DNA from: Sphingobacteriales bacterium 50-39
GTDB lineage: Bacteria; Bacteroidota; Bacteroidia; Chitinophagales; Chitinophagaceae
Reading direction: 5' to 3'
Length of the DNA stretch: 64,000 bases
NCBI GenBank assembly: GCA_001898505.1
Contig: MKTZ01000015.1
Coordinates: 496,001 to 560,000 of the forward strand
Each line of letters begins with the position of its first letter. The stretch's first letter is position 1. The notes below the pieces were generated by a model. That model searched no databases. It was given only the letters and a program-made list of their open reading frames with translations, and was not told the DNA's origin. Positions 18,163 through 42,504 of this stretch are shown here, piece by piece. The translations under genes and the position numbers were made by a program.

Positions 18163-18197
18163 AAAGTGTATCAAAACCGTACACTTCCTGTATCGAA
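18163..18197. promoter_or_regulatory. Candidate enhancer site, copy 1 (upstream of transporter locus)
   Basis: AAGTGTA and TACACTT form perfect 7-bp arms around 9 bp (18164-18186). TGTATC also occurs as a direct repeat 22 bp apart (18167 and 18189). The block AAAGTGTATC-N4-CCG-N-ACA-N-TTCCTGTATC recurs at 42396 in front of the second ATPase gene. Position and symmetry fit an upstream activating sequence for the sigma54-type regulator encoded next door. Confidence 0.6.
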
Positions 18198-18257
18198 AGT
18201 GAACTATAAAGCGGTCTAATCCAGGCTAACAGTCTGTAAATCATAGGTGTTTCATTT

Positions 18258-18272
18258 CTGGCATGTGTTTGC
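18258..18272 (+). promoter_or_regulatory. Sigma54-like promoter element, copy 1
   Basis: CTGGCATGTGTTTGC resembles the -24/-12 consensus TGGCACGN4TTGC but has nine rather than ten bases between GG and GC. The same CTGGCATGTnnTTG, with the same spacing, occurs at 42491, exactly 95 bp after the second copy of the upstream site, just as here. A similar CTGGCATTTCTATGC lies at 18313-18327. Downstream is the membrane-fusion-protein gene at 18388. Confidence 0.45.
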
Positions 18273-18387
18273 TATGTACCTGATAAGAATTTTCTCATGT
18301 GTAGTAGACCTCCTGGCATTTCTATGCTGGGTGGCTTTTTTAAAAACGAAGTAGTAAAAACGAGACTTAAAATTTAAATTTCTTATC

Positions 18388-19644
18388 GTGGACAGAGTAA
18401 TTCCAAAGAAGACATGGACGACCAAGCGCCTGATGACCATAGGCGGTATTTCAGCATTAGTTCTTTTAATTGCCGGCAGCTTTTATTTTACCTCTGGAAA
18501 ATCCAAGCTTAACGTTGATACCGAACGCATTACGATTAGCGACATTACCAAAGGCCCCTTCCAGGAGTCCATTCCCCAGAACGGTACCGTACTCCCCCTC
18601 ACCACCATCTATCTCATAACACCGGATGGCGGACGGGTAGAAGAAAAATATGTCGAGGACGGAGCCATCCTGAAAGCGGGCGATCCGATCCTGCGGCTGT
18701 CCAATACGGACCTGGAACTGAACCTGTCCAATCAAATGACAAACGTATCCTCCATGCTGGCCCAGACACAGCTGTCCCGGGTCAATGCGGATCAGAACAC
18801 CGTGAACAAGCTAACCCAGATGGCCGATGTGGAAAGCCAGTACAGAGAGGCCGCACGTATTTACAACCTGGATAAAAAGCTGTACGCCCAAAAGGTGATA
18901 GGCTCTCAGGAATATCAACAGGCAGAGAATAACTATAACTATTACCTGCAGAAAAAGCAATTGGCCCAGACCATCCTTAAACAGGACACGGTCTCCCGGA
19001 CCGCGCAGGAGAAACAGGATAAGGAGTCATATGCAGGCGCTCAAAAAACCTTGCAGATCCTCCAGAAAAAAGTGGGCGGCCTCATTATCCGGGCACCATC
19101 GGATGGTCAGCTGACCTCCCTGGATGCGGAGATAGGTCAATCCAAGACCCCGGGCATGACCATCGGTCAGCTCGACGTTCTGAACGGATTCAAGGTGAGG
19201 CTGTCCGATGTGGATGAACATTATATATCCCGCGTATTCACGGGCCTGACAGGTGTCTTCAACTTCGCTGGAAAGGACTATAAGCTGAAGATCATCAAGG
19301 TCTATACACAGGTGACCAACGGACGCTTCCAGGTCGATATGTCCTTCGTGGGAGAAGTACCCAAAGGCATCCGTAAAGGTCAGACCCTCCAGATCACCCT
19401 GGCGCTCAGCGACGAGACAACCGCCATACTGGTGCCAAAAGGAGGCTTCTATCAACAGACGGGCGGCAACTGGATCTTCAAGGTCAGCGAGGATGGCAAG
19501 ACGGCCTACCGGCAGGAGATCACGCTCGGACGCCAGAACACCGACTACTACGAAGTCCTCTCAGGCCTCAAGCCCGGGGATAAAGTGGTCACCTCCAGCT
19601 ACGAGAACTATGGCACCATGCAGGAACTGGTGTTGAAAAAATAA
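18388..19644 (+). CDS. HlyD/MacA-like periplasmic membrane-fusion protein
   Basis: 418 residues from a GTG start; an ATG 15 codons later is possible, but the GTG keeps the usual short cytoplasmic tail. One N-terminal membrane anchor (about 17-35) is followed by a biotinyl-lipoyl-like half motif (DGGRVEEKYVEDGAILKAGDPIL), a long alpha-helical hairpin (about 110-225), the second lipoyl half (GGLIIRAPSDGQL) and beta-barrel and membrane-proximal domains. Such adaptors bridge an inner-membrane ABC permease and a TolC-type channel. It is the first gene of the transporter locus and lies downstream of the candidate enhancer and sigma54-like element. Confidence 0.9.
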   Translation: MDRVIPKKTWTTKRLMTIGGISALVLLIAGSFYFTSGKSKLNVDTERITISDITKGPFQESIPQNGTVLPLTTIYLITPDGGRVEEKYVEDGAILKAGDPILRLSNTDLELNLSNQMTNVSSMLAQTQLSRVNADQNTVNKLTQMADVESQYREAARIYNLDKKLYAQKVIGSQEYQQAENNYNYYLQKKQLAQTILKQDTVSRTAQEKQDKESYAGAQKTLQILQKKVGGLIIRAPSDGQLTSLDAEIGQSKTPGMTIGQLDVLNGFKVRLSDVDEHYISRVFTGLTGVFNFAGKDYKLKIIKVYTQVTNGRFQVDMSFVGEVPKGIRKGQTLQITLALSDETTAILVPKGGFYQQTGGNWIFKVSEDGKTAYRQEITLGRQNTDYYEVLSGLKPGDKVVTSSYENYGTMQELVLKK

Positions 19645-19669
19645 CTGTAACACAACAAAACGAAAAATC

Positions 19670-19933: not shown

Positions 19934-19977
19934 CCCAACAACGACTCAAACTACACACTCACTTAAACGCTAATAAC

Positions 19978-20655
19978 ATGATCAAGATCAGTGACCTTCA
20001 AAAAGTATACCGTACCGAAGAGGTGGAAACCGTCGCATTGAATCACCTCAGCTTCGAAGTCAAGGAGGGGGAATTCGTCTCCGTAATGGGCCCCTCCGGC
20101 TGCGGTAAATCCACTCTTCTGAATATTTTAGGCCTGCTGGATGATCCCGATGGCGGAAGCTTTATCTTCAATGGCACCGAAGTTGCTCATTTCAACGAAC
20201 GTAAAAGAGCCGACCTGCGCAAACGCAACATCGGCTTCGTATTCCAAAGCTTCAACCTCATCGATGAGCTCACCGTATTCGAAAATGTCGAGCTGCCCCT
20301 GATCTATCTTGGCATAAAAGGACCCGAACGCAAACAACGCGTAGAGGCGGTATTGGACAAAATGCAGATCATGCACCGCCGCAATCACTATCCGCAACAG
20401 CTTTCCGGCGGTCAGCAGCAACGTGTAGCCGTAGCCCGCGCCGTAGTCAATAACCCGAAGCTGATCCTGGCCGATGAACCTACGGGTAACCTCGACTCGT
20501 CCAACGGTAATGAAGTAATGCAATTGCTGACCGACCTGAACGAACAAGGTACAACGATCATCATGGTAACACACTCCGAACACGATTCCCGCTACAGCCA
20601 CCGCATCATCCGCATGCTGGACGGTCAAACGGTGACGGAGAATATACTCGTCTAA
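19978..20655 (+). CDS. ABC transporter ATPase, MacB/LolD type (first)
   Basis: 225 residues. Walker A GPSGCGKST, Q-loop in FVFQSFNLIDELTV, signature LSGGQQQRVAVARA, Walker B LILADEPTGNLDS and the H-loop VTHSEHD are all intact. The length and the DELTVFENVELPL segment match the MacB/LolD/FtsE group, which powers FtsX-fold permeases by mechanotransmission instead of moving substrate through the membrane. It lies 14 bp before the first of seven permease genes and is the obvious engine for at least the first five. Confidence 0.95.
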   Translation: MIKISDLQKVYRTEEVETVALNHLSFEVKEGEFVSVMGPSGCGKSTLLNILGLLDDPDGGSFIFNGTEVAHFNERKRADLRKRNIGFVFQSFNLIDELTVFENVELPLIYLGIKGPERKQRVEAVLDKMQIMHRRNHYPQQLSGGQQQRVAVARAVVNNPKLILADEPTGNLDSSNGNEVMQLLTDLNEQGTTIIMVTHSEHDSRYSHRIIRMLDGQTVTENILV

Positions 20656-20668
20656 ATACTAAAGTTTT

Positions 20669-23101
20669 ATGTGGAGAAATTATCTCAAGATCGCCTTCCG
20701 CAACATGGCGAAATACAAGGTTATTTCCTTTATTAACCTGTTCGGACTCACTGTCGGCGTCACCTGCTGCCTTCTCATTCTGACCTATATCATCCATGAG
20801 ACCAGCTATGATAAATACAATAGCAAGGCAGACCGCGTCTATCGCGTGACACGCAGCTTCAACAATAAGGAAGGTATCACCTCCCTCCACCTGGGAGCTG
20901 TGGCGCCTCCCTACGGACCCCTGCTGAAGAATGAGTTCCCCGATATTGAGAAAGTCACCCGCATTCTGCCCATGGGTACCATCCCAACCCGTTATGAAGA
21001 GAAGATCTTTTCCGAAAAGGACATCTACTGCGCCGATGAGAACTTCTCCGACGTCTTCGATGTATCCATGCTAAAGGGCAACCCGCATACCGCCCTTATC
21101 GACCCTTTTTCCGTCATCATCACCGAAGACGTAGCTCACCGCTACTTTGGCAATGACGATCCGATGGGTAAGGCCATACGGATGAACAACCAGTTCAATC
21201 TGAAAGTCACAGGCATTATCAAGCCGCTTCCGGAGGCCGCCCATTTCCATCCTCATATCCTGATATCGTTCAATACCCTGAAGGACACAGCCATCTATGG
21301 AGAAAAAAATCTCCAGACCAACTGGGGCAACAATGCCTTCTATACCTATCTCCTTTTCCCGAAGAACTATCCTGTAAAGAATGTCGAAGCCCGTCTGGAT
21401 GCCTTTCTGGATAAATACATGGCAACCTATTACGGGAACACTCAGCCTTCGAAAATGACCCGGCTTTATCTGCAGAAGCTGACGGATATCCACCTCACCT
21501 CCCATCTCGACGAAGAAATGGAAGAGAACGGGGATATCAAAAGAGTATATATCTTCGGCGCCATTGCCTTGTTCATACTCTTTATCGCCTGTATCAATTA
21601 TATGAACCTCTCCACAGCCCGCTCGGCCCTGCGCGCCAAGGAGATCGGGATACGTAAAACATCGGGCGCCCAGCGCGGCGAGATCATTGTGCAGTTCCTC
21701 AGCGAGTCGGTGCTGATCACCTTTCTGGCCACCATCCTGGCCGTGGGACTCACCTGGCTGACCCTGCCCCTGCTCAATACCGTTACGGGACTGTCACTCA
21801 ACATCGACAGCGTCCTTATCCCGCCGGTGATCGCGACCCTTATACTTACACCCTTTATAATAGGTATCATTTCCGGCATCTACCCCGCCCTGTTCATGTC
21901 CTCCTTCCAGCCCGTAAAAGTGCTGAAGGGTCTCTTCAAGGCAGGAAAAAGCACCGTCTCTTTCCGGCAGGCCCTCGTAGTGACACAGTTTGCCATCTCC
22001 ATCATCCTCATCATCTGCACAGCCGTTGTCTTCCAACAGCTGCACTATATGCAGGAGAAATCCCTTGGCTTCGACAAGGAGAGGATCGTCACCCTGGGCT
22101 ATGATGCTGGTCTGTCCATGACCTACGACGCCTTCCGCAACGAACTGCGCAACAGCGCACTCATAAAAGATGTTAGCCGCAGCTCCCGTATCCCCAGCGG
22201 CAGGCTGCTCGACGAACAGGGCGCCTCCACCGAGAGTGGCGATTCACTCCGCCCTGTTAGCGCAGACATCAAATATGTCACCACGGATTATGACTTTGTG
22301 TCCACCTATGGTATACATGTTCTTGCCGGCAGGAATTTTTCCCGCGCCTATGGCACTGACAGCTCCTCCTTTGTGCTGAATGGCGCAGCCACCCGCGCAT
22401 TGGGACTGCAACAACCCGGCCAGGCGGTGGGTCGTAATTTCAAATACGGCGATGTGAAAGGCAAGATCGTTGGGGTAGTCGATGACTTCCACTTCGAGAG
22501 CCTGCACCAGTCCATCGTACCCCTCGTGCTTGTCATGGCCCCTCCCGGCACACCGGGCTTCGGCTACAACCGGCTGTCCATCAAGATCGGTGGCGGCAAT
22601 GTCCCCGGCGCGCTTGCTCAGCTGGAGCGCACCTGGAAGAAATTCCTTCCCCAGACACCCTTCGAATACACCTTCCTGGACGACAAGTTCGATGAGCTCT
22701 ATCGTTCCGAACAACGGCAGGGAACACTCTTCACCTCTTTTGCCGGCATCGCTATCTTCATCGCCTGTCTGGGACTGCTGGGCCTCTCCGCCTTTGCCAT
22801 TTCCCAACGTATAAAGGAGATAGGTATCCGGAAAGTGCTGGGCGCGGGTGTAGGCAGCATCGTAACCCTGTTGTCGAAAGATTTTCTGATACTGGTAGCT
22901 ATCGCCGCCCTCATCGCCTTCCCCGTCGCATGGTATGCCATGCATAACTGGCTCGCGGATTTCGCATACCGGATATCCATACATTGGTGGATTTTCCTCG
23001 TGGCAGGCATCCTGGCATCAGCCGTAGCCCTGATCACCATCAGTTTCCAGGCCATCCGGGCGGCCACCGCGCCACCCGTAAAAAGTCTGCGAACGGAGTG
23101 A
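20669..23101 (+). CDS. FtsX/MacB-type ABC permease, paralogue 1 of 7
   Basis: 810 residues. One N-terminal membrane segment (about 20-42), a periplasmic MacB core domain, a first FtsX module with three segments (about 292-405, containing AKEIGIRKTSGAQRG), a further segment near 432-452, a second periplasmic domain and a second FtsX module (about 688-800, containing KEIGIRKVLGAGVG). It is thus a tandem of two half-permeases in one chain. It ends in PPVKSLRTE, a C-terminal tag shared in variant form by all seven paralogues. It starts 14 bp after the ATPase gene. Substrate unknown; the family handles lipoproteins, peptides and small toxic compounds. Confidence 0.92.
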   Translation: MWRNYLKIAFRNMAKYKVISFINLFGLTVGVTCCLLILTYIIHETSYDKYNSKADRVYRVTRSFNNKEGITSLHLGAVAPPYGPLLKNEFPDIEKVTRILPMGTIPTRYEEKIFSEKDIYCADENFSDVFDVSMLKGNPHTALIDPFSVIITEDVAHRYFGNDDPMGKAIRMNNQFNLKVTGIIKPLPEAAHFHPHILISFNTLKDTAIYGEKNLQTNWGNNAFYTYLLFPKNYPVKNVEARLDAFLDKYMATYYGNTQPSKMTRLYLQKLTDIHLTSHLDEEMEENGDIKRVYIFGAIALFILFIACINYMNLSTARSALRAKEIGIRKTSGAQRGEIIVQFLSESVLITFLATILAVGLTWLTLPLLNTVTGLSLNIDSVLIPPVIATLILTPFIIGIISGIYPALFMSSFQPVKVLKGLFKAGKSTVSFRQALVVTQFAISIILIICTAVVFQQLHYMQEKSLGFDKERIVTLGYDAGLSMTYDAFRNELRNSALIKDVSRSSRIPSGRLLDEQGASTESGDSLRPVSADIKYVTTDYDFVSTYGIHVLAGRNFSRAYGTDSSSFVLNGAATRALGLQQPGQAVGRNFKYGDVKGKIVGVVDDFHFESLHQSIVPLVLVMAPPGTPGFGYNRLSIKIGGGNVPGALAQLERTWKKFLPQTPFEYTFLDDKFDELYRSEQRQGTLFTSFAGIAIFIACLGLLGLSAFAISQRIKEIGIRKVLGAGVGSIVTLLSKDFLILVAIAALIAFPVAWYAMHNWLADFAYRISIHWWIFLVAGILASAVALITISFQAIRAATAPPVKSLRTE

Positions 23102-23152
23102 GAAGACTTTTCGGGCCGGTAGGCCCAGACATTAGACCAAAACGATCTACGC

Positions 23153-25543
23153 ATGATAAAGAACTATTTCAAAATAGCATGGCGACAACTCCGACGTAAC
23201 AAAGCCTACGCCTTTATCAATGTGGCAGGATTGACCTTGGGTATCACCTGCAGCATCGTCATATTCGTCCTCGTACACTATGAGCTCAGCTTCGACAACT
23301 TCCATAAGGACAAGGACAGGATATACAGGGTGGTCACAGAGATCCATCATGACGACATCAGCTATACCTCCGGCACACCTTCCCCCATGGGCAAGGCTCT
23401 CCGCGACGACTATGGCTTTGCCGACAAATTAGCCCGTGTAAGGGTCCTGGGCAATCCCCTCGTCTCCGTCACCTCCGGCAACGACATCCATAAATTTGTA
23501 GAGACCCAGGGCCTCGCACTTGCCGATCCGGAATTTTTCGACATCTTCAACTTCCCCTTTCTCAAGGGTGACAGGTCGATGCTGGCTAATCCCAATACCG
23601 CGGTGATCACCGAAAAGCTGGCGGCCAAATATTTCCCGGGGCAGGATCCCATCGGAAAGGTCCTCCGCATCGAGAACAGCATGAACTTCACGGTCGCAGG
23701 CGTGCTGAAGGACCTGCCGGCCAATACGGACAGGTCCCAGGAAATATACCTGCCCTTCGTCCACCTGAAGGATTTCGACTCCTCCCTGGCCGGCCCCAAT
23801 AGCTGGTCCGGGATCAATAACAATATGCAGTGTTTCGTCCGGCTGAAAGAAGGCGCCACCCCGGCCTCCGTGGAAAACCTCTTCCCCGCCTTCATGCAGA
23901 AATATTATGCGGGCACGCGTGGCTTGAAGGTATATCACTTCAAGCTCCAACCCCTGTCGGATATCCATTTCAATCCCAACTATTCGGGTGTCGTAGAAAA
24001 GAAATATATCTGGGCCCTGGCGCTCATCGGCCTTTTCCTCATCGTCACCGCCTGTGTCAATTTTATCAACCTGGCCACCGCACAAGCCCTGACACGCAGC
24101 AAGGAAGTAGGTATCCGCAAAGTGCTGGGCAGTATGCGACGCCAGCTGTTCTGGCAGTTCATCGCCGAAACCTCCCTTATCGCCCTCTTCGCCACCATAC
24201 TGGCCTTTTGCCTGGCTCAGCGGGCCATTCCCTATGTCAACCAGCTCTTGCAGATCAGTCTGGAACTATCTCCCATAAAAGATTGGGGCCTGGGCATCTT
24301 CCTCCTGGTAATGCTGATCGGGGTCACCTTCCTCGCCGGCTCCTATCCCGGGCTGATCCTTGCCGGCTTCCAGCCCATCCTTGCATTAAAAGGCAAACTG
24401 AACCAGCGGCATATCGGGGGTTTCTCCGTCCGCCGGGGCCTCGTCATCGTACAGTTCGCTATCTCGCAATTGCTCATCATCAGCACCATCGTCATAGCAA
24501 CCCAGATACAATATTCCCGCCAAACAGATATGGGCTTTACAAAGGACGCTATCGTGCTGTTACCCCTACCCATCCCCGACGCACCCAAAATGAGCCATAT
24601 CCAGACAGAACTGGCCGGCATGACGGGCGTGGAAAAAACCACACTCTGCTTCACTCCACCCGCCTCGTCGGATAATGACCTCACGGGCTTCCGGTATAAC
24701 AACGATGCGAAACAGGCCCCTTTCAACGTCAACGACAAGTACGCGGATGATCAATATATAGCCACCTTCGGCCTAACGCTCGTGGCAGGGAGGAACTACT
24801 TCCGGAACGACTCTGCGCATGAATTCCTGGTCAACGAAACATTCGTTCATAAGCTCAACATCTCTTCCCCGCAGGATATAATAGGCAAGAACATCGATGT
24901 ACAGGGTGGACCTCGCGGTACTATCGTAGGCGTCGTAAAAGACTTTCACAACTATTCTTTCAAGGGCGGCATATCTCCCGTCTGTATCTCCACGGACAAT
25001 AGCCGTTACAGCTATTGCGCCGTCAAAATGAATATGGCAAGGGCCGGCAGCCTCTTGCCCGCTATGGAAAAACTGTGGAACGACACCTATCCGGAGTACA
25101 CCTATTCTTATAAGTTCATGGACGACAACATCGCGGAATTCTACGAGACGGAAACTATCCTGCTGCGATTGATTGAAGTATTCGCGGGCATCGCCATTTT
25201 CATCGGCTGTCTTGGATTGTATGGGATGGTCTCCTTCATGGCAGTACAAAAGACAAAGGAAATAGGCGTGCGGAAGGTGTTGGGTGCAGGCGTGCCGGAT
25301 ATACTCTGGATCTTCGGCAAGGAATTTTTCCGTCTGCTGATCATCGCCTTTTTGATAGCGGCCCCCATCGGAGGATGGTTCATGCATCGCTGGTTGCAGG
25401 ATTTTGTTTATCGTATCCCTTTGAATGCAGAGGTCTTTTTACTGGCCCTGGCCTCGACGATTGTCATCGCTACCCTGACCATTGGATACAGGACTGTACG
25501 ATCGGCCCTGGCCAATCCGGTAAAGAGTTTGCGGACGGAGTAA
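23153..25543 (+). CDS. FtsX/MacB-type ABC permease, paralogue 2 of 7
   Basis: 796 residues with the same two-module layout: TM1 at about 20-42, first FtsX module near 285-400 (SKEVGIRKVLGSMRR), second near 675-790 (KEIGVRKVLGAGVP), end NPVKSLRTE. The 51-bp gap before it resembles the gap before paralogue 3 (both start GAAG-TTTTCGGCC), which indicates that duplication included the spacer. Sequence between the FtsX modules has diverged strongly from paralogue 1, consistent with different periplasmic partners or ligands. Confidence 0.92.
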   Translation: MIKNYFKIAWRQLRRNKAYAFINVAGLTLGITCSIVIFVLVHYELSFDNFHKDKDRIYRVVTEIHHDDISYTSGTPSPMGKALRDDYGFADKLARVRVLGNPLVSVTSGNDIHKFVETQGLALADPEFFDIFNFPFLKGDRSMLANPNTAVITEKLAAKYFPGQDPIGKVLRIENSMNFTVAGVLKDLPANTDRSQEIYLPFVHLKDFDSSLAGPNSWSGINNNMQCFVRLKEGATPASVENLFPAFMQKYYAGTRGLKVYHFKLQPLSDIHFNPNYSGVVEKKYIWALALIGLFLIVTACVNFINLATAQALTRSKEVGIRKVLGSMRRQLFWQFIAETSLIALFATILAFCLAQRAIPYVNQLLQISLELSPIKDWGLGIFLLVMLIGVTFLAGSYPGLILAGFQPILALKGKLNQRHIGGFSVRRGLVIVQFAISQLLIISTIVIATQIQYSRQTDMGFTKDAIVLLPLPIPDAPKMSHIQTELAGMTGVEKTTLCFTPPASSDNDLTGFRYNNDAKQAPFNVNDKYADDQYIATFGLTLVAGRNYFRNDSAHEFLVNETFVHKLNISSPQDIIGKNIDVQGGPRGTIVGVVKDFHNYSFKGGISPVCISTDNSRYSYCAVKMNMARAGSLLPAMEKLWNDTYPEYTYSYKFMDDNIAEFYETETILLRLIEVFAGIAIFIGCLGLYGMVSFMAVQKTKEIGVRKVLGAGVPDILWIFGKEFFRLLIIAFLIAAPIGGWFMHRWLQDFVYRIPLNAEVFLLALASTIVIATLTIGYRTVRSALANPVKSLRTE

Positions 25544-25592
25544 GAAGCTTTTCGGCCGATGAGCCGGCCCAAGATCAAATAAAAATTGTCCC

Positions 25593-27986
25593 ATGTTCAA
25601 AAGCTTTATCAAGATCGCCTGGCGCAACCTGCGAAAAAATAAGCTCTATAGTTTCGTCAACATCCTTGGCCTTACCATCGGTATCACCAGCTGTATCCTC
25701 ATTGGACTGTATGTCACGCACGAGCTCAGCTACGACCGGTTTAACGACAGGGCGGACCGCATTGCCCGCATCACCATGGAATTTACAGACGGCACCACCG
25801 TAGACCGTTCCGCTCTCTCGGGCACCAAGGTCGGTCCCCAGTTCCAACGTACATTCCCCGCCATCACGGCCTATACCCGGACGATCCTGTACAATCCTAC
25901 CGTCTCCGTAGAGAATAAGACCTTTAACGAGTCCCGCTTCCTCTACGCCGACTCCGCTTTTTTTTCCATCTTCAGCTTCCCGCTGGTAAAAGGCAACCCA
26001 TCCACGGCGCTATCCGCACCCGGCCAGGTGGTCCTTACCGAAAGCATGGCCAAAAAATACTTCCCCGGACAAGACGCCATCGGTAAGACCATAAGAATAA
26101 ATAACGCCCGGGACTATACGATCACCGGCATTGCAAAAGACGCCCCCGACAATTCCCAAATACAGTTCAACTTCATAGCCTCCTTTACTTCCCTGCCGGC
26201 CGCACAGCGTGAGATATACTGGACTGCCAATTACACCACTTATCTGCTGCTGGCCCGCCCCGAAGACCTCGGCGTCGTTCAAAAGCAGATCACTGCCTAT
26301 ATGCAGACTCCTGCCGTACGCAAGGAAGTAGGCGAAAAATCCCATCTTACCTACTACCTGGAACCGCTGACCCGGGTACATTTGTACTCCAGTCTCGATG
26401 GTCTCGAGCCAAATGGGAACATCACCTATGTTTATATCCTGAGCGCCATTGCCATCCTCATCCTTATCATCGCCTGCGTGAATTACACCAACCTGGCTAC
26501 CGCCCAATCACAGGGGCGCACCGGTGAGATCAGTATCCGCAAAGTGCTGGGAGCAGGGAAAGGACAACTGTTCCGGCAATATCTCGGCGAATCCATACTG
26601 CTCACGTTCATCGCGCTGGCGCTCGCCGTATTTGTAAGCATCCAGCTCCTGCCCTTGCTCAATAATGTCAGCGGCAAGTCCCTGACCGCCTATAGCCTCC
26701 TGAAGCCCGTACCTATCCTGTCCCTGCTGTTGCTGGGGATCGTGGTCAGCTTCCTGGCAGGCGCCTACCCAGCCTTTATACTATCGAATATCAGATTGAT
26801 GAACATTCTCAAGTCTGGATTCCGTCTGTCCTCCTCCGGGGGTAATCTCCGCAAATCGCTCATCGTGGTACAGTTCGTCATCTCTGTCTTCCTCATGATA
26901 TCCACCATGGTGATCCTGCAACAGCTGTCTTACATCCGGAACAAAAAGCTCGGTTATGACAAGGACCATGTGCTGGTGCTGCCTGCCAGCGACGAGATAC
27001 ATAACAGGTATGATGCCGTCAAGGCGGCTGTCAAACAGATACCCCAGGTGGTAGACGCAGGTGGCGCATCCGGTACACCCATATATGTAGGCTGGACCGA
27101 TGGGCTTAGCGCTACTACTGAAAAAGGTGAAAAGAACTTCACCGTAAAGGCCATTCCCTGCGACGCCGACTTTGCAAAGACCATGGGAATGCAGCTCATT
27201 GCGGGTGAGCAGTTCACCCCCGGCGACACGCACCTGATGACCATCCCCGACACGTCAAAGAGTTTCCGCTATACCTTCATGCTCAACGAATCCGCCGTCA
27301 AAGCGCTGGGATGGACACCCGAACAGGCCATCGGCAAGACGGTCGAGAAATACTATCCCGGCACCGTACGCGCCGTAGTAAAGGATTTTCATTTCTCCTC
27401 CATGCACGAAGCCATCGGGCCCCTCATCCTCTTCCTGGATACACAGTGGGTCAACCATATCTATGTCAAAGTTTCCGGAAAGGATATCCCCGGTACTGTC
27501 GCCCGGCTGCAGACCATCTGGAAGACATACGCGCCGAACCATCCATTCGAATATCATTTCCTGGATGAAGACTACAATACCCTGTATAAGACCGAGACTC
27601 GCACCGGTCAGCTATTCGGGACCTTCTCCATCACAGCCATATTGCTGGCCTGCCTGGGGCTTTTTGCACTTGCCGCCTTTACCACTGCCCAGCGTACAAA
27701 GGAGATCGGCATCCGAAAAGTGCTTGGAGCATCGCTGACCAGCCTGGCCGGCCTGCTGTCAAAGGATTTTCTCAAGCTGGTGGCCATCGCCTCCGCTATC
27801 GCCCTGCCTCTATCGTGGTGGGCCATGAATAAATGGTTACAGGAGTTCGTTTATCACATAGATCTGTCCTGGTGGATGTTTGCCGGGGTCATCCTTTTGG
27901 CCTTGCTCATTGCGCTCGTCACGGTCAGTTTCCAGGCCATCCGGGCCGGACTGGCCAACCCCGTGGAAAGTTTGCGATCGGAATAG
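25593..27986 (+). CDS. FtsX/MacB-type ABC permease, paralogue 3 of 7
   Basis: 797 residues. TM1 about 20-42 (LYSFVNILGLTIGITSCILI), first FtsX module near 280-400 with GEISIRKVLGAGKGQ, where the usual Lys-Glu is Gly-Glu, and a second module near 675-790 with KEIGIRKVLGASLT. The end NPVESLRSE is the most divergent version of the shared C-terminal tag. Co-directional and closely spaced with its neighbours, so part of the same operon. Confidence 0.92.
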   Translation: MFKSFIKIAWRNLRKNKLYSFVNILGLTIGITSCILIGLYVTHELSYDRFNDRADRIARITMEFTDGTTVDRSALSGTKVGPQFQRTFPAITAYTRTILYNPTVSVENKTFNESRFLYADSAFFSIFSFPLVKGNPSTALSAPGQVVLTESMAKKYFPGQDAIGKTIRINNARDYTITGIAKDAPDNSQIQFNFIASFTSLPAAQREIYWTANYTTYLLLARPEDLGVVQKQITAYMQTPAVRKEVGEKSHLTYYLEPLTRVHLYSSLDGLEPNGNITYVYILSAIAILILIIACVNYTNLATAQSQGRTGEISIRKVLGAGKGQLFRQYLGESILLTFIALALAVFVSIQLLPLLNNVSGKSLTAYSLLKPVPILSLLLLGIVVSFLAGAYPAFILSNIRLMNILKSGFRLSSSGGNLRKSLIVVQFVISVFLMISTMVILQQLSYIRNKKLGYDKDHVLVLPASDEIHNRYDAVKAAVKQIPQVVDAGGASGTPIYVGWTDGLSATTEKGEKNFTVKAIPCDADFAKTMGMQLIAGEQFTPGDTHLMTIPDTSKSFRYTFMLNESAVKALGWTPEQAIGKTVEKYYPGTVRAVVKDFHFSSMHEAIGPLILFLDTQWVNHIYVKVSGKDIPGTVARLQTIWKTYAPNHPFEYHFLDEDYNTLYKTETRTGQLFGTFSITAILLACLGLFALAAFTTAQRTKEIGIRKVLGASLTSLAGLLSKDFLKLVAIASAIALPLSWWAMNKWLQEFVYHIDLSWWMFAGVILLALLIALVTVSFQAIRAGLANPVESLRSE

Positions 27987-28039
27987 CAGGACCACCGGCC
28001 CGGCGAAAAACAAGGATGATCAACTAAAACCATCATATC

Positions 28040-30478: not shown

Positions 30479-30499
30479 TCATCATATAACTATTCTCGT

Positions 30500-32914
30500 A
30501 TGATCAAGAACTTTTTCCGTGTCGCCCTGCGAAGCCTGCTCAAGCACCGGGTATTTTCCTTTATCAATATCTTCGGCCTTGCCATCGGCATTGCCGCCAG
30601 CCTGCTCATTCTACAGTACACCCGCTTCGAGCGCAGCTATGACAAGTTCGAAGCCAACGCCAGCCGTATATACCGCGTGCAGCAGGACCGCTACAACGAA
30701 GGCAGGCTCACCACGCAATGGGCAGCCGGGGCCGCCGGCATCGGACTTCTCCTCAAAGAGGCCTTTCCGGAGATACAGGCGGTGGCGAGGCTTCATGACG
30801 AGAATAATATCATGTCCTACAAGGAAAAGTTTTTCAGGGAAGACCATATGTTCTATGCCACCGACGAATTCCTGTCCATGTTCTCCTATCCAGCACTTCA
30901 AGGCTCCGTCACAGGCGCCTTGAAAGATCCTTTTACCGCCGTGCTCACCGCCTCCACCGCACGTAAATATTTCGGGAACGAGGACCCCATCGGCAAGACT
31001 ATTGACCTGAATAAGGTCAACCATTACAAGATCATGGCTGTCCTACCCGATCCTCCGGTGAATACACACCTGAAGTTCAGCATGCTTTTCTCCTTTGTCA
31101 CCCTGGAGAAATTTGCGGGACCAAGCGTCAATACTACCTCGGATTGGGACGGTTTCTTTACCTATATACTCCTCCGACCCGGCGCCGATCCGGGGCAGCT
31201 GGAAAAAAAGATCCCCGCGCTCATCGAAAAAAAATGGGGAGAACAGCTGAATAAAGGCAAAGAGGGGGTAGTCTATCACTTGCAAGCCCTGCCCGACATC
31301 CATCTGTCACCTACCTATATGGTGGAGGCAGAGCCCAACGGAGACAGGAAGGCTGTCAGCTTTCTCGAGATCATTGCTCTGTTCATCATTGTTATTGCCT
31401 GGATAAATTATATCAACCTGGCCACTGCCCGGTCCATCGAGCGTGCGAAAGAAGTGGGCATCCGTAAAACGCTGGGTTCTCTTCGCGGCCAGCTCATCGG
31501 CCAGTTCCTCTTTGAATCCTTTCTCATCAATCTGCTGGCGGTGATCATTGCCTTTGTCCTGGTCCTCCTGTTCCTGCCCGTATTCAACACGATGGCAGGC
31601 AAAAGCCTTACGTTCTCGACGATCAACAACACAGGGTTCTGGTATACGCTCGTAATACTCTTCTCAGGAGGCACCGTCCTCTCGGGGCTTTACCCCGCCT
31701 TTGTGCTTTCCTCCTTTAAGCCTATCGCCGTACTCAAGGGCAGGTTTTCCGGGACCACTCACGGCTCCCTGCTACGGCAATCTCTTGTCATAGGCCAGTT
31801 CGTGGCCTCCGTGCTCCTGATGGCAGGCACGTTTACAGTCTACAGACAGCTGCATTTTATGCAGCACGAGGACCTTGGCATAAAGATCAACCAAACGCTT
31901 GTAGTCAAATTCCCCAGAGTGACAGACTCGACAGTCACAGACAGGCTCGCAGGCTTCCGTACGGAAGTGTTGCATATTCCGGGAGTGACCCGGGTCAGTG
32001 CTTCTACGGAAGTGCCCGGTCGCAAAGTAGGCTGGAATGCAGGTGGGATCCGTGAGGTGGGCGCAGACCCTTCTAAAATCCGGCAATACCGTGTCATCGG
32101 CATCGATTATGATTTTGTGGATGCATACGGGCTGAAGGTGATCAAAGGCAGGAATATCTCCCGCCAGTTCGCCGACTCCGACGCGGTGCTCTTTAATCTC
32201 GCGGCCGTCAAAGAAATGGGCTTTAACAAGCCGGAAGAAGTGCTCAATAAAAGGATTGAGTTTTGGGGCAAGCAATATACCATTGTCGGTGTCGTCTCCA
32301 ACCACCACCAGGAGTCACCGCGCCAGGTGTACGATGCCCATATATTCCGGATGATGGACCATCCCATTGACTATAATTATTTTTCAGTCAAGCTGACTGC
32401 CGGCCGGGAAAGCTGGCCCGCTGTCGTTGCTGCCGTAAAACAACAATATGCGAACTTTTTTCCCAGCAATCCCTTCGATTATTTCTTTCTCGATGACCAT
32501 TATGCGGAACAATACCGGTCCGACGAGCAGTTCGGACAGATCTTCGGGCTCTTCGCCGGTCTCGCCATTTTCGTGTCCTGTCTCGGGCTGCTGGGGCTGG
32601 CTTCCTTCGTGACCAACCAGCGGACCAAAGAGATCGGCATCCGGAAAATAGTTGGGGCGGGAGTAGGCAATATCCTCCTCCTGCTGACAAAGGATTTTCT
32701 GAAGCCGGTGTTGCTGGCTTTTTTGATCGCCACTCCCCTGGCCTGGTACATATTGGGGAAATGGCTGGAGAATTATGCCTTCCGCATAACCCTTACGCCC
32801 TGGATGTTTGTCCTGCCCCTGGCGATCATCCTGGTTGTCGCCCTGCTGACGACGGCCACACAGACTTTGCGGGCCGCGACGGCGAACCCCGTTAAAAATT
32901 TAAGGACTGAGTAG
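30500..32914 (+). CDS. FtsX/MacB-type ABC permease, paralogue 5 of 7
   Basis: 804 residues. TM1 with FSFINIFGLAIGIAASLLI, first FtsX module near 290-405 (AKEVGIRKTLGSLRGQ), second near 690-800 (KEIGIRKIVGAGVGN), end NPVKNLRTE. It follows paralogue 4 after 21 bp. A 241-bp gap with two perfect inverted repeats follows, so it is probably the last gene of the first permease block. Confidence 0.92.
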   Translation: MIKNFFRVALRSLLKHRVFSFINIFGLAIGIAASLLILQYTRFERSYDKFEANASRIYRVQQDRYNEGRLTTQWAAGAAGIGLLLKEAFPEIQAVARLHDENNIMSYKEKFFREDHMFYATDEFLSMFSYPALQGSVTGALKDPFTAVLTASTARKYFGNEDPIGKTIDLNKVNHYKIMAVLPDPPVNTHLKFSMLFSFVTLEKFAGPSVNTTSDWDGFFTYILLRPGADPGQLEKKIPALIEKKWGEQLNKGKEGVVYHLQALPDIHLSPTYMVEAEPNGDRKAVSFLEIIALFIIVIAWINYINLATARSIERAKEVGIRKTLGSLRGQLIGQFLFESFLINLLAVIIAFVLVLLFLPVFNTMAGKSLTFSTINNTGFWYTLVILFSGGTVLSGLYPAFVLSSFKPIAVLKGRFSGTTHGSLLRQSLVIGQFVASVLLMAGTFTVYRQLHFMQHEDLGIKINQTLVVKFPRVTDSTVTDRLAGFRTEVLHIPGVTRVSASTEVPGRKVGWNAGGIREVGADPSKIRQYRVIGIDYDFVDAYGLKVIKGRNISRQFADSDAVLFNLAAVKEMGFNKPEEVLNKRIEFWGKQYTIVGVVSNHHQESPRQVYDAHIFRMMDHPIDYNYFSVKLTAGRESWPAVVAAVKQQYANFFPSNPFDYFFLDDHYAEQYRSDEQFGQIFGLFAGLAIFVSCLGLLGLASFVTNQRTKEIGIRKIVGAGVGNILLLLTKDFLKPVLLAFLIATPLAWYILGKWLENYAFRITLTPWMFVLPLAIILVVALLTTATQTLRAATANPVKNLRTE

Positions 32915-33009
32915 GTCTGACCCATAAAAATGCTTATGCGACCAATGGCGGAATGCAGGCTCAAGGGTGCTTAAAAAGATGCTGAACAATTGGTTTAAAA
33001 AAACGCAGA

Positions 33010-33032
33010 TTTTAGTACTTTAAGTACTAAAA
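33010..33032. promoter_or_regulatory. Perfect 23-bp palindrome between permeases 5 and 6
   Basis: Arms of 11 bp, TTTTAGTACTT and its exact complement, flank a single central T. It lies in the only long gap inside the permease array, 124-146 bp before the next gene, where an operator for a second transcription unit would be expected. The AT content and lack of a T tract argue against a terminator. Confidence 0.5.
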
Positions 33033-33054
33033 TTCGACAAAAAATAAACCAGAT

Positions 33055-33098
33055 TTGCCATGTCCTTTAAACATAGTCGTATTTTACAGACATGGCAA
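33055..33098. promoter_or_regulatory. 10-bp-arm inverted repeat before permease 6
   Basis: TTGCCATGTC at 33055-33064 and its exact complement at 33089-33098 are separated by 24 bp. It is a second perfect inverted repeat in the same 241-bp gap. It could be a two-half-site operator or an mRNA hairpin upstream of the gene at 33156. Confidence 0.45.
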
Positions 33099-33155
33099 CC
33101 TCAATGCAAGCCAGGACTGACGAATATTTTTAAAAAACTACTGGACTATTGATTT

Positions 33156-35495
33156 ATGAAGACCCCGTTAAAAATAGCGCTGCGCCATCTCCGGAAATAC
33201 CCCCTCTTCTCCTCCATCAACCTGGCGGGGCTTTCTGTTGGCATCGCCGCCTCCTTTATCCTGCTGATCTATTCGGAAAGAGAAATGAACACCGACAGTC
33301 AGTTCGCGGATGCGGACAGGATCGCCCGCGTAGGCACCGACTTCTTCAATATAGGAGGCTTTGCTCAAAGCCAGCCGGGTCTTAATCCCCTGCTGCAGGG
33401 CGCCTGCAAGGACATCCAATACGCTACCTCCTTCGATAAGGATTATGGCGAGACGGAGGTCAGGACCTCGCTGAATGAAAGAGCCTATACAGGCATTCAC
33501 GCCTACTTCATCGACTCCAATTTTTTTAAGGTCTTCTCCTATGGCGCCGCTGAAGGAGTCATTCCTGGGAAAGGACTGTCCCCGGGGGAAGCCATCGTTT
33601 CCGAGACCAATGCACACCGGCTGTTTGGCTCCGGATCCCCCATCGGAAAGACCCTGCTCATCGGCAAGGAAAATACACCCTATAAAGTTGTCGCCGTATT
33701 GAAGGAAGGCTTTGAAAGATCACACCTGGACCCGACCCTGCTGCTGCCCCTGCCCAGGAACGAAATGTACGATTACCCCCACAACTGGGCCAGCTGTAAT
33801 ATCTATAACTATATCAGGCTGCGGCCCGGAGGCTCATTTGCCGGCGTACAGGCCACACTCGACAGGATACTGAAAAAGCTGGTGAACCCCGAGTTTGCTT
33901 ATATGCATGTTCAGTTCATTCTTCAGCCGTTGCGTGACATCTATTTCCATTCCCATCTCAACCTGGAGCTCTCACCCGGCGGCAGCCTCGCACAGGTGAG
34001 GTTACTGGGCGCCATTGGCCTCTTCCTCATCCTGCTGGCCATCATCAATTATGTCAATCTCGTTACCGCCCGCTCATCCACCCGTAATAAGGAGTTTGGG
34101 CTGAAAAAGACCCTGGGCGCCTCCCGCTACCAGCTCGCGGGTCAGATAGTCCTGGAATCGCTGCTCTTCAGCCTCGTGGCCATGCTGCTGTCCTGCGGCC
34201 TCATACAGGTCATCGCCTACCTCTATCGTCATTTTACAGGCGATGAGCTGACAAGCACTCTTCCATTGATGATATCCCATTACGGATGGCTGCTTCTCTT
34301 TTCCCTGTCAGTAGGTCTGATCGCCGGCCTGTACCCCGCCGTCTATCTCACGGCCATCAAGCCCATCCTCTCCCTGCGGTCTATGGCCGGCCGGCCCGGC
34401 AGGACAAGCCCCCGTGTACGCAATGTGCTGGTGCTGGTGCAATTCTCCATCGCCGCTGCGCTCGTGTTCGCCTCCTTTGTCGTATACAGTCAATTGCAAT
34501 ATATCAACAGCAAGGACAAAGGATTAAAAGCAGAAGGAGTCGTGCTGGTGAACAACTTCCGCAACCAGGAAGCCTTTCGTCATCTCATCGAACAGCAGTC
34601 ACAGGTGGTCAGCACCAGCTTTTGCAACCGCACCCCCGCCGGCAGCACCATTTGGGTCAATACATACCAGAAGCCCGGCATGAGCAACAATATGTCCATT
34701 CAATACTTCCCCGTGGATGACAAGTTCCTATCTACTATGAATATGCGCCTTATCGAGGGCAGGAACTTCAACAGGGACCTTATCACGGACACCAACTCGC
34801 TTATCCTGAATGAATCCGCCGTGGCGGCGCTGGGACTCTTCAACCCCATCGGCGCTACCCTCAATGGCAGTCAGCACATCATCGGCGTGGTAAAGGACTT
34901 TTCTTACAATTCCCTTCATGAAAAGATAGCCCCCGCTATACTGGGCTTTTCGCCCCAGGGTAATATCCTCGCCATACGGATCAAGGGTGGACATACGGCG
35001 CAATTCCTGGACTGGCTGCAGGCCACCGGCAAAAAGTTCATGCCTGACGCGCCTCCGGCCATCAGCTTCCTGGACGACAATTTCAAACAGCTGGCGAAAA
35101 AAGATAAATTACTGGGCGACGCCATCGGCTTCTTTACCATACTGGCCATATTTTTAGCGACACTGGGTCTCACGGGTCTCACCCTTTTTACCATCGAAAG
35201 ACGTACCCGGGAGATTGGCGTCCGGAAAGTGCTCGGCGCTACTATTCCCGATATATTGGCCCTCGTGTCAAAGGATTTTGTCAAGCTTACCTTTGTAGCT
35301 TCCGGTATCGCGCTGCCCCTTAGCTGGTGGCTCGTACACCGCTGGCTCGAGAATTTCGCCTATCGCGTCTCCATCGGCTGGTGGATATTCTTTCTCACCG
35401 AAGCCATACTGCTGCTGATAGCCCTGTCCGTCATCAGCCTGCTGGCCCTGAAGGCGGCAACCGTGAATCCAGTGAAGACGTTGCGCACGGAATAA
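33156..35495 (+). CDS. FtsX/MacB-type ABC permease, paralogue 6 of 7
   Basis: 779 residues, the shortest and most divergent of the seven. TM1 is FSSINLAGLSVGIAASFIL, but the following element reads EREMNTDSQFADADRIARV in place of the usual SYDxFN form. First FtsX module near 285-400 with NKEFGLKKTLGASRYQ (Arg replaced by Lys), second near 655-770 with REIGVRKVLGATIP, end NPVKTLRTE. It starts a second block after the palindrome-containing gap, so it may be expressed separately from paralogues 1-5. Confidence 0.92.
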   Translation: MKTPLKIALRHLRKYPLFSSINLAGLSVGIAASFILLIYSEREMNTDSQFADADRIARVGTDFFNIGGFAQSQPGLNPLLQGACKDIQYATSFDKDYGETEVRTSLNERAYTGIHAYFIDSNFFKVFSYGAAEGVIPGKGLSPGEAIVSETNAHRLFGSGSPIGKTLLIGKENTPYKVVAVLKEGFERSHLDPTLLLPLPRNEMYDYPHNWASCNIYNYIRLRPGGSFAGVQATLDRILKKLVNPEFAYMHVQFILQPLRDIYFHSHLNLELSPGGSLAQVRLLGAIGLFLILLAIINYVNLVTARSSTRNKEFGLKKTLGASRYQLAGQIVLESLLFSLVAMLLSCGLIQVIAYLYRHFTGDELTSTLPLMISHYGWLLLFSLSVGLIAGLYPAVYLTAIKPILSLRSMAGRPGRTSPRVRNVLVLVQFSIAAALVFASFVVYSQLQYINSKDKGLKAEGVVLVNNFRNQEAFRHLIEQQSQVVSTSFCNRTPAGSTIWVNTYQKPGMSNNMSIQYFPVDDKFLSTMNMRLIEGRNFNRDLITDTNSLILNESAVAALGLFNPIGATLNGSQHIIGVVKDFSYNSLHEKIAPAILGFSPQGNILAIRIKGGHTAQFLDWLQATGKKFMPDAPPAISFLDDNFKQLAKKDKLLGDAIGFFTILAIFLATLGLTGLTLFTIERRTREIGVRKVLGATIPDILALVSKDFVKLTFVASGIALPLSWWLVHRWLENFAYRVSIGWWIFFLTEAILLLIALSVISLLALKAATVNPVKTLRTE

Positions 35496-35504
35496 ACCCA
35501 TCAC

Positions 35505-37943
35505 ATGATAAAGCACTACATAAAAACCGCCCTACGCACCCTCCGCCGTAACAAGCTCTTCTCGGTGATCAATGTCCTGGGGCTCTCCATCGGGCTCAGC
35601 GCCGCGCTGATCATCTACCTCATCGTACAGTACGATTTCAGCTTCGAGCAATCCCGGAAGGATAAGGACCGTATCTACCGCGTCGTCACTATGATGAGCT
35701 TTTCCAATTCGTCCTATCCAAATTCCGGCACACCCTACCCCATAGTAGAAGCCACGCGTAAAGAGGTCCGTGGCATCGATGGGTCCGCCAATTTCTTTAC
35801 CATCTCGGGAGAAGCCTCCATACCCAGACAGGGAGCCGCGCCGGTGAAATTCAAACACCTGTCCAATCTTATATACACCGACGAACATTATTTCCAGCTA
35901 TTCCCCGCTCAGTGGCTGGCAGGCGGGCCTGGCCCGCTCAACGAACTTTTTCATGTGACCCTGACCGAAAGTCGTGCTCAAACCTATTTCCCCGGTCTTA
36001 GCCCTGCACAGGCCATGGGCAGGACCGTGATCTATGACGACTCCATTCCCTGCACCGTAACGGGCATCATAAAGGATGAGAAAGGCATGACCGACCTTGC
36101 CTTCCAGGAATTTATCTCGCTGCCCACCATCAAGCACAGCTCCAGCAGCGATGAGGCAGGGTCCGACTGGGGCTCCCTCAACTCGAACACCCAGTTCTTT
36201 GTCCGGCTGGAGAAAGGCGTTCAACCCGGACAGGTGGAGCAGCAGCTGGCTACGCTGAGAAAAAAATACAGCAATGACGGCAAGGATACGATCAATAAGA
36301 TGATCCAGCATCTCCAGCCGCTCACGGATATCCATTTCACCGGCGACTACGCCAGTTTTGGCAAGCGCCAGGCCAGCAAGGCAGCCCTCTACGGGTTGCT
36401 GGTTGTAGCCATTTTCCTGCTGAGCCTCGGCAGCATCAATTTTATCAACCTTACGACCGCGCAGGCAGCCCAGAGAGCAAAAGAGATCGGTATACGCAAG
36501 ACCATGGGCGGCTCCCGTCGTCAGCTCATCACCCAGTTCCTCAGCGAAGCCTTTCTCCTTACCCTGATCAGCACCCTCCTGTCCGTGGGCCTTGCGCCGT
36601 GGCTGATGAAGGCATTCTCCGACTTCATCCCAAAAGATCTCCCATTTACGCTCTCAGCCAACCTTTACCTGTTCCTCGCCGGGCTCGTCATTGTCGTCAC
36701 CCTCCTCTCAGGCTTCTACCCCGCGCTGGTGCTGTCCCGCTTCAAGCCCGTGCTGGCCATGAAGAACCAGGCCTTTTCCAATAAGAGCACTACCCGCAAT
36801 GCCCTGCTTCGCCAGAGCCTCACCATCTTTCAGTTCGTCATTGCGCAGGGCTTTATCATCGGCACCATCATCGTAGGCAGCCAGATACATTTTTTCCTGA
36901 ATAAGGATATGGGATTCAAGAAGGAGGCGATCTTTTATTTCTATCCACCATTTAACGCCGCTGACCTGTCCCAGCGACAGCAACTGTTGAGGGACAGGCT
37001 ACTTACCATACCCGGCATCACCCAGCTCAGCGTATGTGATGCTCCTCCCGCCTCCGGCTGGATCAATTCCGAGCTCATGACCTACAACGACGGGAAAAAG
37101 GATATCAATTCCGATGTACAGATCCTGAATGTGGACACAAACTATATGAAGCTGTATGGTCTCAAGCTTCTGGCCGGTCGCAATATTCGTCCAGTCCCCG
37201 ACAGCCCACGTCAGATGGTGATCAACCGCAGCTATGCACAGGTCCTGGGATTCACCCATCCGGAACAGGCGCTGGGAAAGGTCATAAAAGGATCGAATAT
37301 CGTTGTGGGTGTGGCGGAGGATTTTCATCAGACATCGCTCCATAAAGCTATCCGGCCGCTGGCGATGACCAATGGTCACAGCGGCATGCCCTTCCAATGG
37401 TTCCACATTGCATTGCCCAATACACCGCAGGGGCGGGCCGGCTGGAAAAAAACCATTGCTGCCGTACAACAGGCATATAAGGACATCTTCCCGGGTGAGG
37501 ATTTCGAATATACTTTTTTCGATGACAGCATAGCGCAATTCTATATAGCCGAACAGCATATGTCCACATTGCTTCGCTGGGCCACCGGCCTTACCATCTT
37601 TATCAGCTGTCTGGGACTGCTGGGGCTGGTGATCTATTCCACCAACCTTCGTACAAAGGAAATAGGCGTCCGAAAGGTCCTGGGCGCCTCCGTAACACAG
37701 ATCGTCTCTCTGTTATCAAGGGATTTTGTAAAATTGGTTTGTATTGCGTTTGTGATCGCTGTGCCCGTCGCCTGGTATGCCACTCATCGCTGGATGGAGA
37801 GCTTCGTGTATAGGACGACGATAGGTTGGTGGGTATATGCCCTCAGCGGGCTGGCCATGTTGGTGATGGCGCTGCTCACGCTTAGCATACAGACCATCCG
37901 GGCCGCGAGTGCCAATCCGGTGAAGAGCTTGCGGACGGAGTGA
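35505..37943 (+). CDS. FtsX/MacB-type ABC permease, paralogue 7 of 7
   Basis: 812 residues, starting 9 bp after paralogue 6. TM1 FSVINVLGLSIGLSAALII, first FtsX module near 295-410 (AKEIGIRKTMGGSRRQ), second near 690-805 (KEIGVRKVLGASVTQ), end NPVKSLRTE. Its periplasmic part resembles paralogue 2 (both have the stretch SGTPxP after the first 60 residues), suggesting that array members share subfamilies. The surface-protein gene follows after 87 bp. Confidence 0.92.
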   Translation: MIKHYIKTALRTLRRNKLFSVINVLGLSIGLSAALIIYLIVQYDFSFEQSRKDKDRIYRVVTMMSFSNSSYPNSGTPYPIVEATRKEVRGIDGSANFFTISGEASIPRQGAAPVKFKHLSNLIYTDEHYFQLFPAQWLAGGPGPLNELFHVTLTESRAQTYFPGLSPAQAMGRTVIYDDSIPCTVTGIIKDEKGMTDLAFQEFISLPTIKHSSSSDEAGSDWGSLNSNTQFFVRLEKGVQPGQVEQQLATLRKKYSNDGKDTINKMIQHLQPLTDIHFTGDYASFGKRQASKAALYGLLVVAIFLLSLGSINFINLTTAQAAQRAKEIGIRKTMGGSRRQLITQFLSEAFLLTLISTLLSVGLAPWLMKAFSDFIPKDLPFTLSANLYLFLAGLVIVVTLLSGFYPALVLSRFKPVLAMKNQAFSNKSTTRNALLRQSLTIFQFVIAQGFIIGTIIVGSQIHFFLNKDMGFKKEAIFYFYPPFNAADLSQRQQLLRDRLLTIPGITQLSVCDAPPASGWINSELMTYNDGKKDINSDVQILNVDTNYMKLYGLKLLAGRNIRPVPDSPRQMVINRSYAQVLGFTHPEQALGKVIKGSNIVVGVAEDFHQTSLHKAIRPLAMTNGHSGMPFQWFHIALPNTPQGRAGWKKTIAAVQQAYKDIFPGEDFEYTFFDDSIAQFYIAEQHMSTLLRWATGLTIFISCLGLLGLVIYSTNLRTKEIGVRKVLGASVTQIVSLLSRDFVKLVCIAFVIAVPVAWYATHRWMESFVYRTTIGWWVYALSGLAMLVMALLTLSIQTIRAASANPVKSLRTE

Positions 37944-38030
37944 GCTTTGCGAGCTCGGGTATTTTTATTATATTGGAACTGCCGGCAGAGGCCTGGAACT
38001 TCAGCCCTCTTTTAACCTCAAAAAAACACC

Positions 38031-42308: not shown

Positions 42309-42395
42309 GAATATCCGCCAAACGTTCCGGTTTCCTATATTCGCTCCTGCCGGACAGGCGCATCCGCACCATCCGACTGGGCCTTCCGATCCGCG

Positions 42396-42435
42396 AAAGT
42401 GTATCGTTTCCGGACAGTTCCTGTATCAAAAACAG
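42396..42435. promoter_or_regulatory. Candidate enhancer site, copy 2 (upstream of second ATPase)
   Basis: AAAGTGTATC-N4-CCG-N-ACA-N-TTCCTGTATC starts at 42396 and matches the element at 18163 over the same blocks, with TGTATC again repeated at 22-bp spacing (42400 and 42422). A short inverted repeat CTGT/ACAG follows. It lies in the 226-bp gap before the second ABC ATPase gene; otherwise I see no gene in that gap. Confidence 0.6.
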
Positions 42436-42490
42436 AACTGCCCCCCAGCCCATACTCACATAAATTATTTATTAACAGCTAGTTACTACT

Positions 42491-42504
42491 CTGGCATGTC
42501 ATTG
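42491..42504 (+). promoter_or_regulatory. Sigma54-like promoter element, copy 2
   Basis: CTGGCATGTCATTG starts exactly 95 bp after the start of the upstream element, the identical distance to that found at 18163/18258. The -12 end reads TTGA where copy 1 has TTGC, and the spacing is again one base shorter than the classical sigma54 consensus. The ATPase gene starts 44 bp downstream. Confidence 0.45.

Follow-up and report, generated by a model that had tools for sequence, protein, structure and literature searches.

The locus described here carries two copies of a regulatory module that, judged by its conservation, is a real control switch of a transporter regulon spread over the family; on the same comparisons, shared control by the neighboring NtrC-type regulator is well supported. 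In plain terms, a control switch is repeated before many pump genes in soil bacteria, and its start signal looks one letter shorter than the textbook length. Each module consists of a tandem candidate enhancer (TGTATC-N5-CG-N-ACA, with TGTATC again 22 bp on), often TGTAAATCA, and then a -24/-12-like element. Both copies lie in the window, by which we mean the whole 64-kb stretch of DNA that was analyzed, and the features of the locus are as follows.

15209..16549, - strand: sensor kinase adjoining the regulator (HATPase_c)
16603..18018, - strand: NtrC-type response regulator (Pfam Response_reg, Sigma54_activat, HTH_8; loop GAFTDA), divergent from the adaptor
18167..18183, + strand: first module, candidate enhancer site 1 (TGTATCAAAACCGTACA), read directly, with positions conserved in 101 modules
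18189..18204, + strand: first module, candidate enhancer site 2 (TGTATCGAAAGTGAAC), 22 bp past site 1, aligned in 27 loci
18226..18243, + strand: first module, CTAA...TGTAAATCA element between enhancer and promoter, putatively IHF-like, from the alignment
18258..18272, + strand: first module, -24/-12-like element, GG-N9-GC (CTGGCATGTGTTTGC)
18388..19644, + strand: HlyD-type periplasmic adaptor (Pfam HlyD_3; RND_mfp over cut-off), first gene downstream of module 1
19978..20655, + strand: first ABC ATPase
20669..37943, + strand: seven MacB_PCD/FtsX permease genes (20669, 23153, 25593, 28040, 30500, 33156, 35505), from Pfam
38031-42308: FG-GAP/TIG protein of 1425 residues with a Por_Secre_tail domain (type IX secretion-type tail), inside the permease array
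42400..42416, + strand: second module, candidate enhancer site 1 (TGTATCGTTTCCGGACA)
42422..42437, + strand: second module, candidate enhancer site 2
42491..42505, + strand: second module, -24/-12-like element, GG-N9-GA (CTGGCATGTCATTGA)
42535..43200, + strand: second ABC ATPase
43212..44681, + strand: TolC-type outer membrane channel (Pfam OEP)

The sequence-only reading had described an element, AAAGTGTATC-N4-CCG-N-ACA-N-TTCCTGTATC, recurring with identical 95-bp geometry, and both points are exact: the element occupies 18163-18194 and 42396-42427 on the + strand without a mismatch, and CTGGCATGTNNTTG stands at 18258 and 42491, 95 bp past the start of each first element. No third match to the element occurs in the window at up to three mismatches (0 expected from 100 shuffles). 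Since CTGGCATGTNNTTG alone, at up to two mismatches, is at chance level in the window (7 found against 5.86 expected), the evidential weight lies in the pairing and the geometry. The genome motif scan that the same reading had suggested found, for a shorter form of the first element in the whole genome (7.9 Mb, 27 contigs), two exact matches, which are the window copies, and one with three mismatches; the reversed pattern had 0 matches. The two copies agree at 60 of 116 printed positions, mostly within the named elements, and are thus no recent duplication; the description of a duplicated module stands as to two exact copies, but these belong to a family-wide regulon rather than to a two-copy duplication.

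The genes likewise bear out what had been claimed, with the first module before the adaptor, the second before an ATPase-TolC pair, and a sigma54 activator and its kinase adjoining the first copy. The regulator has PF00072, PF00158, and PF02954 over cut-off (receiver, sigma54-interaction AAA+, and Fis-type HTH). The array to its right comprises, in order, an adaptor, an ATPase, seven MacB/FtsX permeases, the FG-GAP/TIG protein, ATPase 2, and the TolC-type channel. All seven permease proteins have MacB_PCD and FtsX domains over the Pfam cut-offs and share 30-41% pairwise identity; the two ATPases are identical at 112 of 225 aligned positions. Both ATPases have 78-100% identity to relatives in array loci, and the permeases mostly 30-45%, as if the ATPases acted as shared engines for many changing permeases. 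A second two-component pair (His_kinase and a LytTR response regulator, window 13129-15185) adjoins the NtrC-type pair, and an extra CTGGCATTTCTATG lies at 18313-18326, 55 bp past the first -24/-12-like element, with the same in G007 and G002.

Of 30 orthologous loci that we fetched, the window's own among them, 27 have the module beside the NtrC-type regulator; in the other three, L023 and L031 stop at a contig end, and L028 is mis-oriented, with its genome's module visible in L093. Alignment of the 27 loci shows that TGTATC-N-AAA-N-CG-N-ACA, the second TGTATC site 22 bp on, CTAA...TGTAAATCA, and CTGGCAYGTGNTTG are conserved and that the filler is not, so that the anatomy goes beyond the elements named earlier: the enhancer is double, and a putative IHF-like element often lies between it and the promoter. 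In 86 of 101 modules the middle element contains WATCA, against a shuffle mean of 17.3 and a shuffle maximum of 28; the offset is 72-74 in 78 of them, and WATCA is absent from the second window copy; the strict IHF consensus WATCARNNNNTTR fits 6 of 101 (shuffle mean 0.5). About 40 bp upstream of the first enhancer site, between regulator and first module, TGGCAATTAATTTTTTA preceded by TACCTTAAATATAA is strongly conserved in L007-L035 and weak in the window near 18116-18132; this block may belong to the regulator's own promoter.

Beyond the regulator loci, a tandem pattern allowing up to two mismatches has 139 matches in 33 same-genus genomes, 32 of which have matches, compared with 5 for the reversed pattern. 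Of 248 genomes from the order, 18 match a stricter tandem pattern and 0 its reversal; the window's family, with 82 of the 248, accounts for 17 of the 18. We fetched 35 stretches with 36 sites; 28 of the stretches have exact sites beyond the arrays read before, and seven have sites with one mismatch. The remaining sites with one or two mismatches, and a few exact ones (G029:C576, G023:C161), stayed outside this set. The next ORF is a relative of a window permease at 24 sites, of ATPase 2 at 10, and of the adaptor at one, with none at the last, so that 35 of the 36 stand before relatives of the locus permeases, second ATPase, or adaptor; the set is not all distant, as L365 is the first module itself, L363 is on the regulator's contig, and L350 is seemingly inside a permease gene. 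The third exact site of the window's genome (C9:714813) also precedes a permease and is without a clear -24 element. Among the arrays of 20 relatives, read in stretches, a module lies directly 5′ of ATPase 2 in ten (in G034 with three mismatches) and before the permease that precedes ATPase 2 in G012, and the shortest loci (G017, G008, and G006, with adaptor, ATPase 1, permease, ATPase 2, and TolC) have one module each; in the remaining six, ATPase 2 is outside the stretch read. Longer arrays carry more, with four in the part read of G014 and two in G026, and all array modules are on the coding strand except one weak match without a promoter. Because the module both adjoins the regulator in most loci and recurs before the same kinds of gene, the earlier proposal of shared control finds support in its link to the NtrC-type regulator, with sigma54 use a prediction.

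To count the spacing of the -24/-12-like element, we collected 105 distinct modules from the loci fetched up to that point, of which 101 have GG[CT]A near a fixed distance, and picked the GG without regard to the -12 side. In 93 of the 101, GG is 91-93 nt downstream of the enhancer's first T; across the 101, C follows GG in 97 and A in 100 (pattern GG-C-A-Y-R), giving a YTGGCAY-type -24 element. Counting onward from GG, T is at base 8 in 91 modules and at base 9 in 97, G at base 10 in 69, and C at base 11 in 17. TTG follows GG at nine bases in 63, ten in two, and eleven in three, with none at these spacings in 33; shuffling the bases after GG gives a mean of 3.9 for nine, and the 12 modules with full TTGC all have it at nine. 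Both window copies have 9 nt between GG and the G of TTG, confirming that they are one base short, and this is conserved across modules: restricting the count to modules less than 80% alike leaves 53 of 86 at nine, two at ten, and 31 with none, and a later set of 21 distinct modules from 14 genomes outside the genus, which excludes own-genus loci and duplicate readings, has 13 at nine, 0 at ten or eleven, and eight with none, all 21 carrying GGCA[CT]. Compared with a sigma54 promoter, the modules thus have the GG of the -24 element and, from sequence, tandem candidate enhancer sites upstream; they lack a consistent -12 GC (G in 69 of 101, the following C in 17) and the ten-base GG-GC distance, with 63 of 101 one base closer and two at the classical place.

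Nine bases as a general sigma54 rule of the genus is rejected: exact TGGCACG-N3-TTGC has 53 matches in the 33 genus genomes versus 39 for the reversed control, which by itself is not striking. The ten-base form of the same element has 22 matches versus 51 for its reversed control in these genomes, and is therefore not enriched genome-wide either. An intergenic scan of the window's own genome showed no favored spacing. A weight-matrix promoter scan was given a control run on E. coli EBP regions, in which six of nine matches at the strictest threshold were at ten bases, beside norV, hycA, hypA, pspA, prpB, and atoD. In 31 stretches of the genus that flank other EBP genes, ORFs were preceded by nine candidates at ten bases, three at nine, two at eight, and five at eleven, and in other families of the order (20 stretches, same scan) by six, three, two, and 0, respectively; these counts weakly favor ten-base spacing elsewhere. 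Within the genus, ten-base spacing is clearest at L189 and L190, two copies before a paralogous adaptor operon; a paralogous GAFTDA regulator there shares, as judged by eye, an operon with adaptor, outer membrane protein, ATPase, and two permease-like genes, with the ten-base TTGGCATYTGGATTGAA. Among loci beside what by eye are kdp-like genes, L199 reads ten, and L191 and L198 have TTG at nine with GC at ten.

Our preferred account, in which we have moderate confidence, is that an export regulon of the MacB type is under NtrC-like control, with sigma54 acting at nine-base promoters. On a signal that it presumably senses, the kinase would phosphorylate the NtrC-type regulator, which would then bind every module at a tandem pair of sites spaced by two helical turns. 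An IHF- or HU-like protein would bend the TGTAAATCA stretch into a loop, through which the regulator's AAA+ ring would open promoters bound by sigma54 RNA polymerase; in these, nine bases rather than ten separate the -24 GG from the -12 G, and the -12 C is mostly missing. One regulator would in this way co-activate the adaptor, the ATPases, TolC, and a group of MacB/FtsX permeases, through several modules spread along each long array and through additional ones at other genomic sites. Three features, the EBP, the double enhancer, and the -24 element, speak for sigma54-like control; the rarity of the -12 C (17 of 101) and the 33 of 101 modules lacking TTG at the counted spacings count against it. 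Counting against the mechanism as a whole are the strict IHF fit in six of 101, the second window copy without WATCA, and an RpoN of unchanged length: 77 residues separate the -12 HTH and the RpoN box in 33 of 33 sequences, E. coli included, and the sigma54 is thus without a change that would match the spacing. A broader proposal, which we find plausible but stop somewhat short of expecting, is that one clade (Chitinophagaceae and Sphingobacteriaceae) has long kept a regulon of nine-base sigma54 promoters, copied over transporter genes and read by an ordinary, unaltered sigma54.

The strongest alternative, which we consider unlikely, is that the element is not a sigma54 promoter at all: the regulator would activate a housekeeping-type promoter, and TGGCAYG-TTG would be the site of another protein or a relic of an older sigma54 promoter. 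The departures in spacing and -12 C fit this, and some NtrC-family members work without sigma54. The regulator loop also differs from GAFTGA, being GAFTDA in 28 of 30 orthologues and GSFTDA in two, with the central FT kept. GAFTGA is called invariant in the available part of PMC12316311, but GAFTDA is among the loop variants expected to retain activity in that of PMC4641369, and it also occurs in homologues with ten-base TTGC elements (L271, L276). Against a non-sigma54 element there are, in addition, the near-fixed distance of GGCA from the enhancer, the conserved TT of the -12 side, and the absence, by eye, of a further conserved block resembling a promoter downstream in the alignment of the 27 loci.

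It is improbable that the modules are read instead by a second sigma54 of the genus, RpoN2, preferring nine-base spacing. rpoN is found in 58 of 58 relatives, and the window's genome (G000) indeed has two rpoN genes (C11:328713-329186 and C1:1013789-1014259; L004, L005), but RpoN2 has the same 77-residue distance, and six genus genomes that are 99-100% complete have one rpoN match only (G010, G020, G024, G026, G027, G028) and each carry one or more modules in which TTG is at nine bases. Since these nearly complete genomes have nine-base modules, a second sigma54 is not needed, and RpoN2 as a requirement is rejected. The only fair ten-base case in the single-rpoN genomes is L199 (G027). In G006, the second rpoN directly adjoins an EBP gene (C58).

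That the modules are ordinary ten-base sigma54 promoters, with nine an artefact of a wrong choice of GG or of closely related sequences, is very improbable: a few modules do read ten (two of 101) or eleven (three of 101), and the relatives L226, L242, and L247 read best as ten with TTTC, but the blind choice of GG, the persistence of nine among the modules less than 80% alike (53 of 86), the 12 full TTGC at nine, and the 13 to 0 of the later set contradict it.

On the origin of the nine-base form assumed in our preferred account, a genome-contig scan gave at least 80 regulator loci, with promoters read in 71 and then in all 80 listed. The best TTG is at nine in at least 13 loci (L214, L215, L216, L221, L223, L224, L227, L228, L233, L234, L235, L240, L256), and TTG is at ten in at least 13 loci used (L250, L252, L258, L262, L263, L271, L272, L276, L280, L282, L284, L287, L293). 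Among the matches listed, five of the 13 ten-base loci (Pontibacter, OLB12, Echinicola) have GC at eleven, none reads nine, and many loci, most Cytophagales included, have no spacing call; there too the enhancer is TGTATC in nine-base loci and TGTNCG-type or otherwise different in ten-base loci. Outer homologous regulators face ten-base sigma54-like elements, some with full TTGC (L271, L276, L284, L287, L293). A tie of the GAFTDA loop to nine bases is rejected, with GAFTDA in the ten-base L271 and L276 and GSFTGA with nine in L235. In a tree of 37 regulators (12 nine-base loci and the window, 13 ten-base, seven neither, two genus paralogues, and two E. coli outgroups), there is one nine/ten change among the matches listed, on a branch of SH-aLRT 93 without bootstrap and with the seven neither-rows uncounted. 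Because three of these rows (L226, L242, L247) belong to the nine-base clade and are best read as ten, a single origin without reversal is not proven by the tree.

If sigma54 reads the modules, the nine-base element is a new variant of its promoter, and a natural, repeated, and conserved form of this kind would reveal the real freedom of the holoenzyme in spacing. Buck 1986 and Merrick and Gibbins 1985 are reportedly the cited sources for strict sigma54 promoter spacing. A structure paper, in its available part, describes the -24/-12 spacing as strict "in all sigma54 promoters" (PMC5505868), with further background in those of PMC7057263, PMC6755734, and PMC6296734; were our broader proposal true, this rule would not be strict, and the fixed-distance tandem enhancer and bend may be what lets the short form work. 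We found no report of nine-base sigma54 spacing in literature mostly outside subscription papers. Scanners fixed at ten bases would overlook such regulons, and the module itself is a simple signature for listing the transporter regulon in these genomes. Because cultured species carry the nine-base form, namely Flavihumibacter stibioxidans (L233) and Arcticibacter svalbardensis (L240), the question is testable at once.

Among known systems, the regulator is closest in build to the NtrC-family EBPs (ZraR, AtoC, NtrC, and PrsR of PEP-CTERM systems), with the same succession of receiver, AAA+ sigma54-interaction, and Fis-type HTH domains. It matches solved NtrC-family and ZraR structures, and its top NCBIfam matches are PEP_resp_reg, AtoC, and ZraR, all below the equivalog cut-offs; it differs from the family in the GAFTDA or GSFTDA loop of its orthologues. 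With E. coli sigma54 promoters (glnAp2, norV, pspA, atoD, prpB) the modules share a YTGGCAYG-type -24, a TTG-type -12, an upstream enhancer, and an adjoining EBP gene, but the former have ten bases from GG to G(C), whereas the modules have nine and no conserved -12 C. The available part of PMC12316311 gives the sigma54 consensus as TGGCAC-N5-7-TTGCT, in which notation the modules are N4. It also reports that COG0577 permeases are enriched under predicted sigma54 promoters in Bacteroidia, the same MacB-type transporter kind as here. That survey kept only EBPs with exact GAFTGA and states that its method is limited for promoters departing from the consensus, and for these reasons it probably missed the present regulator and spacing. 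The transporter resembles MacB, ADOP, and the darobactin exporter (DarBCD), and its permease, adaptor, and ATPases score highest in NCBIfam against ADOP, DarB, DarC, and DarD. All of these matches are below the cut-offs, the first permease scoring 282.6 bits against the ADOP family (TIGR03434, cut-off 622.3) and so not being a member, and the present locus differs in setting many permeases beside two ATPases.
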